Assembly: GCF_027359675.1 (NCBI RefSeq)
Contig: NZ_CP114786.1
Coordinates: 5,120,501 to 5,184,500 of the forward strand
DNA length: 64,000 bases
Direction of reading: 5' to 3'
Source of the DNA: Roseibium sp. Sym1
GTDB taxonomy: Bacteria > Pseudomonadota > Alphaproteobacteria > Rhizobiales > Stappiaceae
The notes beneath the pieces were generated by a model. It made no database searches. It saw only the letters and a program-made list of their open reading frames with translations, and was not told the origin of the DNA. A program made the translations under genes and the position numbers. Positions 45,215 to 46,620 of this stretch are shown one piece after another (position 1 is the first letter of the stretch; every line of letters starts with the position of its first letter).

Positions 45215-45383
45215 ACGGGTGTTTTTCGAATCACCTCGACCAGTCTGGATTTTCTTTGCTGCATTGCACCACGTGCATGACAGGCATGCAGAGATGGCAC
45301 TTCTTTTAATTCGAGCGGTGAAATATATAGGTATCAACAACGGCGCGGAACGCTGAGGCGTTTCGGTTAATAAGGAAAACAAA

Positions 45384-45533
45384 ATGTTTGACACAGTGCG
45401 CCAACGCTACAGCAACTGGGTAAGCTACCGCCGCGCGGTCGACGAACTGTCCCGCCTGTCCTCGCGTGAGCTTGCCGACCTCGGCATCAGCCGGAGCGAT
45501 ATCAAGTTTATCGCTCGCCGTCAGATCGGCTAA
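45384..45533 (+). CDS. DUF1127 (YjiS-like) small protein, CcaF1-like, first copy
   Basis: This 49-residue basic protein has the DUF1127 core: NWVSYRRAVDELSRLSSREL followed by ADLGISRSDIKFIARR. It is too short to be flagged by length cut-offs but has a ribosome-binding site (AAGGAAAAC) and typical codon use. DUF1127 proteins are Arg-rich; in Rhodobacter one of them, CcaF1, binds RNA and is co-transcribed with CCUCCUCCC-loop sRNAs. Here three such hairpins follow 16 bp after the stop. A role in RNA maturation or turnover is inferred from that context. It lies downstream of the uvrA terminator, so it has its own promoter. Confidence 0.88.
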   Translation: MFDTVRQRYSNWVSYRRAVDELSRLSSRELADLGISRSDIKFIARRQIG

Positions 45534-45548
45534 CACATTTAGAGATCG

Positions 45549-45582
45549 CGTCCCTAGGCATCCTCCTCCCAGCCGACGGGCG
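45549..45582 (+). ncRNA. CcsR-type ('cuckoo') hairpin RNA 1
   Basis: CGTCC/GGGCG and GGC/GCC stems enclose a loop with CCTCCTCCC (45562-45570). The 18-mer GGCATCCTCCTCCCAGCC here recurs exactly at 45595 and 46519. The loop resembles the anti-Shine-Dalgarno sequence. Confidence 0.7.
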
Positions 45583-45583
45583 T

Positions 45584-45619
45584 GTGACACGCAGGGCATC
45601 CTCCTCCCAGCCCTGTCAC
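45584..45619 (+). ncRNA. CcsR-type hairpin RNA 2
   Basis: CAGGGC (45592-45597) pairs with GCCCTG (45610-45615), extended by GTGA/TCAC with a bulge. The 12-nt loop ATCCTCCTCCCA presents CCTCCTCCC (45600-45608). Confidence 0.78.
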
Positions 45620-45628
45620 GTCGAAACG

Positions 45629-45670
45629 ACGCCCGCCAGTACCTCCTCCCACTGGCGGGCGTTCGTTTGT
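45629..45670 (+). ncRNA. CcsR-type hairpin RNA 3, doubling as terminator
   Basis: A 12-bp stem (45629-45640 with 45651-45662) has a 10-nt loop holding CCTCCTCCC (45642-45650). TCGTTTGTC follows, so it probably ends the transcript that starts with the DUF1127 gene. Confidence 0.78.
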
Positions 45671-45753
45671 CTGGCGCTTGATTTTCATTTGAACAGCACT
45701 TTCAGTCATGTCTCTAATCTACAGATGTATTCATCTGCTGATGGAGACCTTCA

Positions 45754-45978
45754 ATGTCCATTGATTCCAACAAGATCGACGACGCCGTTCTGGCTCTTCT
45801 GACCCTGACGCTGCATGACGGACAAAGAGCCTGGAAAGGCCATGACTGGGACGTGCTGGGACGTTTGCATGAAAAAGGCTATATCAGCGACCCGGTTGGC
45901 AAGACCAAATCCGTGTGGTTGACGGAGGATGGGCTCAAGCGGTCCAAAGAACTTTTCGAACAGCTCTTTTCCACATAG
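45754..45978 (+). CDS. DUF6429-family small protein
   Basis: This 74-residue protein matches the DUF6429 pattern: DKIDDAVLALLTLTLHDG-like N terminus, RAWKGHDWDVLGRLHEKGYI, DPVGKTKSVWLTEDGL and a closing KELFEQLF. The middle looks like a small winged-helix (RLHEKGYISDPVGKTKSVWLTEDG), so DNA or RNA binding is possible. It lies between the two DUF1127-RNA units. No function is established as far as I know. Confidence 0.75.
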   Translation: MSIDSNKIDDAVLALLTLTLHDGQRAWKGHDWDVLGRLHEKGYISDPVGKTKSVWLTEDGLKRSKELFEQLFST

Positions 45979-46349
45979 GCCCCTGGAGCAACAACTTTGC
46001 CCGGCCTTGTCGCCGGGCTGAGGACACCCGGTGCAGCCTCGCCAACTCAAACCCGCCCGGTCTTTCGAAAGACCGGCCCTGGCCAGCTGTTCGAAAACGG
46101 GCTTTCTGGAGAACATTTTATCTCGCACATGCGAGATGAATATTTCGCCTGTTATGCGTTTGATGCGGGCAATTGTGGCATTTCAAGCCCTTTAACCGGT
46201 TATTAATCTGCAAAAAATGCATACCTGCTTCGCGATTTGCCCTCTACCTCGCACTGCACAAAGTCCCTATCTTCCAATCATCAACGATGAACGGGCCAGA
46301 CGCCGATCCGCGGTGCCATGGCCAAGAGATAAAGCGAAAGGCCTAAACC
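45979..46349. other. Intergenic stretch with two hairpins
   Basis: This stretch holds no supported gene. GCCCGGC/GCCGGGC can pair at 45999-46018. A perfect 20-bp palindrome, CCGGTCTTTCGAAAGACCGG, lies at 46057-46076. Neither has a T-run. The promoter of the second DUF1127 gene must lie in the last part, which is AT-richer (46180-46290). Confidence 0.5.
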
Positions 46350-46499
46350 ATGATCGATAACGTTGTTCGCAAATTCAACAACTGGAAACGCTTCCGTCAG
46401 ACCTATGACGAGCTGTCCAACCTGTCCAACCGCGAACTGAACGACCTGGGCATTGCCCGTGCCGACATCGCCCGTTACGCGCGCATGTCCGCAAAGTAA
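46350..46499 (+). CDS. DUF1127 small protein, second copy
   Basis: This 49-residue paralogue has exactly the same length as the first. It reads NWKRFRQTYDELSNLSNREL then NDLGIARADIARYARMSAK. The two share the DEL-LS-NREL-DLGI-R-DI frame but differ in about half of the residues, so this is an old duplication. The ATG at 46350 follows AAAGGCCTAAACC. A CCTCCTCCC hairpin begins 10 bp after the stop and a second one ends the unit. The same gene-plus-RNA layout as at 45384-45670 argues that the pairing is functional. Confidence 0.88.
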   Translation: MIDNVVRKFNNWKRFRQTYDELSNLSNRELNDLGIARADIARYARMSAK

Positions 46500-46508
46500 G
46501 TCAGTTTC

Positions 46509-46546
46509 GCGATCCCGCGGCATCCTCCTCCCAGCCAACGGATCGC
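46509..46546 (+). ncRNA. CcsR-type hairpin RNA 4
   Basis: GCGATCC (46509-46515) pairs with GGATCGC (46540-46546), with inner GGC/GCC, around a loop with CCTCCTCCC (46524-46532). It shares the exact 18-mer with hairpins 1 and 2. Confidence 0.78.
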
Positions 46547-46575
46547 ACCATCTGCACCTTCGGGCGCAGACTTCA

Positions 46576-46620
46576 AAAAGCGCCTGCCGGATCCTCCTCC
46601 CACCGGCAGGCGTTTTTTTG
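46576..46620 (+). ncRNA. CcsR-type hairpin RNA 5, terminator form
   Basis: CGCCTGCCGG (46581-46590) pairs with CCGGCAGGCG (46603-46612); the loop is ATCCTCCTCCCA. Seven T residues follow (46613-46619), so this is an intrinsic terminator whose loop carries the RNA motif. Confidence 0.82.

Follow-up and report, generated by a model that had tools for sequence, protein, structure and literature searches.

Organization of the locus

The stretch of DNA analyzed here (64 kb of the Roseibium sp. Sym1 genome, hereafter the window) carries two adjoining operons, in each of which a short DUF1127 gene is followed directly by a set of RNA hairpins and preceded by a predicted promoter with an upstream LysR-type box (Table 1). 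A first-pass annotation of the sequence had described both genes as 49-codon DUF1127 genes, and Pfam scores well above the cut-off bear this out. Between the operons lies a DUF6429 gene (window 45754-45978, 119.3 bits).

Table 1. Features of the two DUF1127 operons, in window coordinates
Feature	Position	Strand	Evidence
LsrB-type LysR box TGCACCACGTGCAT, operon 1	45265..45278	+	pattern and spacing match
Predicted promoter, operon 1	45300..45328	+	-35 CTTCTT 45300-45305, 17-nt spacer, -10 ATATAT 45323-45328; aligned upstream regions
DUF1127 gene 1, 49 aa	45384..45533	+	PF06568 56.8 bits, cut-off 23.3
ar14 sRNA, operon 1, three motif hairpins	45542..45667	+	RF02344 63.2 bits, gathering 58.8; covariation
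Operon 1 hairpin 1	45547..45584	+	motif 45562-45570 in loop
Operon 1 hairpin 2	45591..45616	+	motif 45600-45608 in loop
Operon 1 hairpin 3, long stem, weak U tail	45625..45667	+	motif 45642-45650
LsrB-type LysR box TGCAAAAAATGCAT, operon 2	46209..46222	+	pattern and spacing match
Predicted promoter, operon 2	46244..46272	+	-35 CTACCT 46244-46249, 17-nt spacer, -10 CTATCT 46267-46272; aligned upstream regions
Conserved 5' leader of DUF1127 gene 2	46289..46349	+	alignment A3; without covariation
DUF1127 gene 2, 49 aa	46350..46499	+	PF06568 54.2 bits, cut-off 23.3
ar14-like RNA, operon 2: two motif loops flanking a motif-free hairpin	46504..46618	+	RF02344 51.2 bits, below gathering 58.8
Operon 2 hairpin 1	46509..46546	+	motif 46524-46532
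Operon 2 middle hairpin, motif-free	46551..46570	+	folding; relatives compared
Operon 2 terminator-like hairpin, T tract at end	46575..46618	+	motif 46593-46601 in loop

The motif CCTCCTCCC occurs at the five plus-strand sites at which it had been noticed and nowhere else on either strand of the window, and five copies were reached in none of 100 dinucleotide shuffles of the window (mean 0.84). The 18-mer GGCATCCTCCTCCCAGCC, likewise noticed before, is present in three copies and absent from the shuffles. Folding of both sets places every one of the five motifs in a predicted hairpin loop, as annotated, with z values of -4.18 for set 1 and -6.45 for set 2; 0/200 shuffles were as stable in either case. 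In the 7.26-Mb genome, the arrangement CCTCCTCCC-N20-32-CCTCCTCCC has a single occurrence, at these operons.

The first-pass annotation had both sets begin 10-16 bp after the DUF1127 gene; the first stems lie ~13 nt (set 1) and ~9 nt (set 2) past the stop codons. Two of its details needed correction. Set 2 had been described as plain motif hairpins, and two motif loops are indeed there, with an extra motif-free hairpin between them. Moreover, of two claimed terminator stems, the one at the end of set 2 has a strong U tract (GCGTTTTTTTG), whereas the tail of set 1 is weak (GCGTTCGTTTGTC). A promoter and terminator scan of the plus strand gave nothing assignable to either operon; both end hairpins were missed by the terminator scan because it was restricted to loops of 3-8.

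Identity of the RNAs

The first-pass annotation had proposed a covariance search against Rfam, and this search identified set 1 as ar14 (RF02344), with a score above the gathering threshold. This family is founded on NfeR1 of Sinorhizobium (S.) meliloti and, in the portions available of the papers describing it, has three hairpins with variable stems and an ultraconserved anti-Shine-Dalgarno motif, CCUCCUCCC, which is unpaired (PMC10746234, PMC7143759). Set 1 has this architecture, CCUCCUCCC being unpaired in each of its three hairpins. Set 2 scores below the threshold, its middle hairpin is devoid of CCUCCUCCC, and it is classed as ar14-like only. Membership in CcsR1 (RF02791) was rejected for both sets (31.0 and 27.7 bits versus a cut-off of 65.3), as was an assignment to 6C RNA (27.9 bits versus 47).

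The kinship with Rhodobacter CcsR RNAs that had been put forward thus holds at the level of the 'cuckoo' type, while the nearest curated family is ar14/NfeR1 and not CcsR1. The remaining claims stand: the species has two operons with 'cuckoo'-type RNAs, each attached to a DUF1127 gene, and the loops resemble an anti-Shine-Dalgarno sequence. The 3' end of 16S rRNA likewise has CCUCC as its core. In both operons the short DUF1127 gene is followed directly by the CCUCCUCCC-loop RNAs, as at CIN1/cuckoo loci; the pairing of DUF1127 with a CcsR-like RNA is what the excerpts available of PMC10253847 and PMC7143759 call the CIN1 locus. What is added to this known type of RNA is detail, namely the paired layout and the common predicted switch. 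In literature searches that lay mostly outside subscription journals, DUF1127 together with CCUCCUCCC was not found, and DUF1127 with Roseibium or Labrenzia was not among the matches listed; DUF1127 alongside anti-Shine-Dalgarno led to work on GlmZ and RapZ, available in part.

Conservation in the genus

Two neighboring DUF1127 genes with the motif after the first are found in 35/36 same-genus relatives, and at least two ar14 matches (E <=0.01) also in 35/36. The relative with no ar14 match (G022) has just three DUF1127 matches, all <=43.6 bits, and was left out of the regions; the second contig of G029 (L159) was left out of the per-genome counts, and L167-L170, which belong to other families, of the genus counts. 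In all 35 regions read, two or more DUF1127 genes lie on the motif strand (in G029 across two contigs). The layout of the window, with two ar14 matches within ~2.5 kb, recurs in 32/36 relatives; in G014 and G017 the second gene has no ar14 match after it, and in G029 the operons lie on separate contigs.

Exact operon-1 motifs, counted in the window and 35 relatives, number three in 32 of the 36 genomes, six in one and nine in three. The higher numbers are those of L145, L146, L151 and L158 (G015, G016, G021 and G029), and in L151 five DUF1127 genes follow one another. Outside the genus, L167 (G043) has four consecutive DUF1127 genes with ar14-like matches, the exact CCTCCTCCC being absent. In alignment A1 of the operon-1 RNA, the three loops are invariant in 36/36 rows; these rows were cut around exact motifs, and it is therefore the separate motif count (32/1/3 of 36) that constitutes independent evidence. 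The first-pass annotation had been prepared to give up its reading if the loops were not conserved in related genomes, and the operon-1 motifs are kept in 36/36. The operon-1 stems vary, with 18/32 pairs changed on both sides in A1, and 99.1% of alignment cells are paired, versus 32.6-45.9% in slid-partner controls, which are firmer than a shuffle control, since the latter can be inflated by related sequences.

Hairpins that follow closely behind a gene, with a long stem at the end and, in set 2, a good U tract to close it, could be mere 3'-end structures that terminate or stabilize the DUF1127 mRNAs and do not act in trans. A terminator, however, does not need an invariant 9-nt loop, and the operon-1 motifs are exact in 36/36 genomes while the stems vary; the motif numbers of six or nine in 4/36 genomes and the NfeR1 loops, which are proven seeds in a relative according to the accessible text of PMC10746234, also speak against a purely structural role, which we consider quite improbable.

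Operon 2 was counted in the 34 genomes with exactly two DUF1127 genes (L151 and L158 left out). Under a strict rule, its succession of motif loop, motif-free hairpin and motif loop is found in 29/34. Among the exceptions, L144 and L145 have no loops within 135 nt of the gene (L145 has an ar14 match of 48.5 bits beginning ~108 nt past it), L147 has a single loop, and L157 and L166 have both loops, with CCTCC also in between. Exact 9-mers number two in 21 genomes, one in 4 and zero in 9, and several of these nine RNAs carry shorter CCUCCC loops. The sequence of the middle hairpin varies among relatives. Because a consensus emerged only for the last hairpin when set 2 was aligned with MAFFT (A2), this set was assessed one sequence at a time; A2 and A3 were made without L144, L145, L146, L151, L158 and L159, which are divergent or multi-copy.

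The DUF1127 proteins fall into two groups according to operon, separated by one dividing branch with support of 100/99 (77 rows, 49 columns only), and their sampled mean identity is 0.77 and 0.76 within the groups and 0.56 between them. The twin layout therefore probably predates the genus.

Upstream of DUF1127 gene 2, the leader is strongly conserved, with a mean column identity of 76% over 31 Roseibium leaders, L147, L153 and L166 being the most divergent. It was considered as a structured element, which was rejected with two-sided changes in 0/6 predicted pairs, and as the site of a conserved uORF, which was rejected because the ATG is missing in some genomes (e.g. L152, L163, L164). Its folding energy is not unusual (z from -0.86 to 0.43, four single sequences folded), and an Rfam search of the leader had no match.

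Promoters and predicted LsrB control

Both operons have a TGCA-N6-GCAT box upstream of the promoter, as expected for members of an LsrB/VtlR regulon; NfeR1 is activated by LsrB at TGCA-N6-GCAT in the text available of PMC10746234. The box is present in 52/78 DUF1127 upstreams (extra copies included) versus 97/7,800 shuffles. In the window, both boxes stand exactly 21 nt before a -35-like hexamer, itself separated from the -10 by 17 nt, and this box-N21-(-35)-N17-(-10) geometry is shared by 28/36 operon-1 and 25/36 operon-2 upstreams, with 0 at every other box spacing from 15 to 27. The genome has 8 DUF1127 genes, and an upstream box combined with a motif directly downstream is confined to these 2.

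A longer form, TGCA-N6-GCAT-N2-CWG, is exact in 33/36 operon-1 upstreams (window included) and in only 16/36 of operon 2. It occurs 8 times in the genome, versus 0 in a reversed control, and 3/8 of the sites are at the two operons and an AbcR-like RNA; since ~7 sites are expected by chance (an estimate at equal base frequencies), it is the position and spacing of the long box that carry weight, not its number. Another of its sites (L209) lies ~420 nt from a further DUF1127 gene, albeit on the 3' side and the other strand. The second published LsrB consensus, GCAT-N3-TG-N3-T (PMC8844928, seen in part), differs from each of the three promoters at a single position, as read by eye.

The third copy of the box/-35/-10 geometry is found before the AbcR-like RNA (L011; C1 ~3541300-3541510, minus strand), which has a CCUCCUCCC loop, scores 23.1 bits with ar15 (below the cut-off of 40) and lies just downstream of a LysR gene. 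This LysR gene directly follows trxB, which presumably also neighbors lsrB in S. meliloti. It reached no cut-off among the 25 NCBIfam models listed of 56 matching, and is putatively LsrB-like by its place only. In S. meliloti, AbcR1/2 adjoin lsrB, as stated in the part available of PMC8844928.

Given that the LsrB-type box precedes the -35 by exactly 21 nt at both operons and at the AbcR-like RNA, the sequence suggests LsrB with sigma-70, and not RpoH, as the promoter input of both operons. The gene order equals that of ccaF1-CcsR1-4 (PMC10253847, in excerpt) and DUF1127 is present in both operons, as it would be in an RpoH-dependent operon of the CcsR type, responsive to heat and singlet oxygen, whose RNAs are matured by the DUF1127 protein; the CcsR1 scores far below the cut-off and the upstream LsrB-type box at a fixed distance from the -35/-10 pair nevertheless make such an operon unlikely.

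DUF1127 genes beyond the genus

A survey of other genomes used the 80 best, named, of 589 confirmed trmFO loci, with 260-nt search windows; as it began from trmFO neighbors, it does not sample DUF1127 genes as a whole. DUF1127 genes are present at 64 of these 80 loci, 102 in total, of which 23 have both the box and the exact motif, 13 the box only, 19 the motif only (a class that includes second genes of tandem pairs with the box before the first gene) and 47 neither. In other Hyphomicrobiales, box and -10 show the 21-nt geometry in 35/94 DUF1127 genes near trmFO, and <=6 at each other spacing, with the last base of TGCA left free and the Roseibium loci L051-L054 left out. When a -35 is also required, the 21-nt geometry is seen in 5/94 DUF1127 genes of these other families, and 2 are at spacing 19. 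We note that Brucella rhizosphaerae (L062) and B. endophytica (L064) have CCTCCTCCC repeats directly 3' of a DUF1127 gene near trmFO; the exact TGCA-N6-GCAT is absent within 260 nt upstream of that gene in both.

Proposed mechanism and candidate targets

We read the locus as two old paralogous operons, each encoding a 49-aa DUF1127 protein and a 3' anti-Shine-Dalgarno sRNA, under LsrB-type control and with loops that block translation, and we give this reading a probability of roughly 75%. An LsrB-type LysR regulator would activate both operons and the AbcR-like RNA through the identically spaced predicted promoters. Each DUF1127 gene would be co-transcribed with its 3' RNA, and the transcript may be cleaved by RNase E or a similar enzyme, by analogy with R. 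sphaeroides CcsR, where ccaF1-CcsR is a single, RNase E-cut transcript in the excerpts available (PMC10253847, PMC8625941). Operon 1 would thereby release a three-motif ar14 RNA and operon 2 a two-motif variant. Through their CCUCCUCCC loops, these RNAs may then base-pair to Shine-Dalgarno sequences resembling GGGAGGAGG and keep translation from starting, in the manner of S. meliloti NfeR1, which represses mRNAs through its anti-Shine-Dalgarno loops (PMC10746234, in part). RNA maturation and protein contacts are candidate roles for the DUF1127 protein here: the idea that it might bind or mature these RNAs comes from CcaF1 by analogy only, and Agrobacterium DUF1127 proteins work by protein-protein contact, with PhoR, according to the available part of PMC12501420.

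Full complements of the 9-nt motif before an ATG are few in the genome (10 sites, compared with 3 in the reversed control), and the AbcR-like loop, read on its opposite strand, accounts for one of the ten. The 7-nt complement precedes an ATG at 216 sites versus 26 in the control, a difference for which ordinary Shine-Dalgarno sequences account. One full complement, GGGAGGAGG, is located a few nucleotides before the ATG of a DctP-type solute-binding protein gene of the same genome (L199; C1:1935889, plus strand). This gene is a candidate target that recalls the transporter targets of NfeR1, on anecdotal grounds. The sequence TCCTCCTCCCA was found 8 times in the genome and 3 times in the reversed control. 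Four of the genomic sites belong to these operons and one to the AbcR-like RNA; the further sites are L009, L010 and L016, L009 being the complement of the Shine-Dalgarno sequence of the DctP-type gene.

Instead of pairing with mRNA, the loops could chiefly serve as a sponge for a protein, be it DUF1127 or some other. In R. sphaeroides, CcaF1 indeed binds RNA and influences the CcsR RNAs encoded alongside it in the operon (PMC10253847, available in part), and the motif-free hairpin of set 2 is retained with a variable sequence, so that structure rather than sequence may count there. Invariant unpaired C/U loops complementary to the Shine-Dalgarno sequence, on the other hand, fit pairing, as proven for NfeR1, and the exact CCTCCTCCC is absent within 260 nt downstream in 60/102 DUF1127 genes near trmFO. 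A protein sponge appears improbable, and translational block by anti-Shine-Dalgarno loops is the likely mechanism.

On a wider scale, the DUF1127 protein and the ar14 RNA might be two outputs of one ancestral LsrB/VtlR operon in Hyphomicrobiales, of which the VtlR-DUF1127 and LsrB-NfeR1 branches, described apart from each other, would represent the halves, still fused in Roseibium, Phyllobacterium, Mesorhizobium and others, with Roseibium keeping a second, specialized two-motif copy alongside. We advance this scenario tentatively, at somewhat less than even odds. The link between LsrB/VtlR, small DUF1127 proteins and anti-Shine-Dalgarno RNAs, which are handled apart in the literature found, is testable. 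Should LsrB drive transcripts in which DUF1127 and ar14 are fused, the RNA of the same transcript may be responsible for part of the effects that have been put down to the small proteins alone.

Comparison with known systems

The sRNA family reported here for a marine genus is a known one; it is arranged in two operons, and this layout is retained across the genomes read. As in ar14/NfeR1 of S. meliloti, there are three hairpins with CCUCCUCCC loops and variable stems, although operon 2 differs in having two motif loops only. The TGCA-N6-GCAT box is also common to both, at -72 to -60 for NfeR1 and at ~-70 to -57 in Roseibium, relative to a start inferred from the -10. NfeR1, however, has been presented as a transcript with its own promoter, whereas the Roseibium RNA is located 3' of a DUF1127 gene and the promoter precedes the gene.

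The order of a short DUF1127 gene and CcsR-like RNAs is that of the CIN1/cuckoo loci of Reinkensmeier and Giegerich (2015), known to us through the portions available of PMC10253847 and PMC7143759; unlike the CIN1 locus as presented there, Roseibium has two adjoining copies that form two groups genus-wide. The same order, with CCUCCUCCC RNAs downstream of the DUF1127 gene, is seen in ccaF1-CcsR1-4 of Rhodobacter sphaeroides (RF02791). That operon has an RpoHI/RpoHII promoter, whereas the Roseibium promoters look LsrB-type, and the CcsR1 model has two hairpins, in contrast to the three per set found here, which score below its cut-off.

Lastly, in the part available of PMC12595884, Brucella VtlR activates three DUF1127 genes and AbcR2, and its motif is CAATGCAGCCATGCA. 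The predicted Roseibium regulon is similar in that a LysR-type regulator would act on DUF1127 genes and on an AbcR RNA, and differs from the VtlR regulon as described there in that each predicted DUF1127 target is accompanied by an ar14-type RNA on its 3' side.
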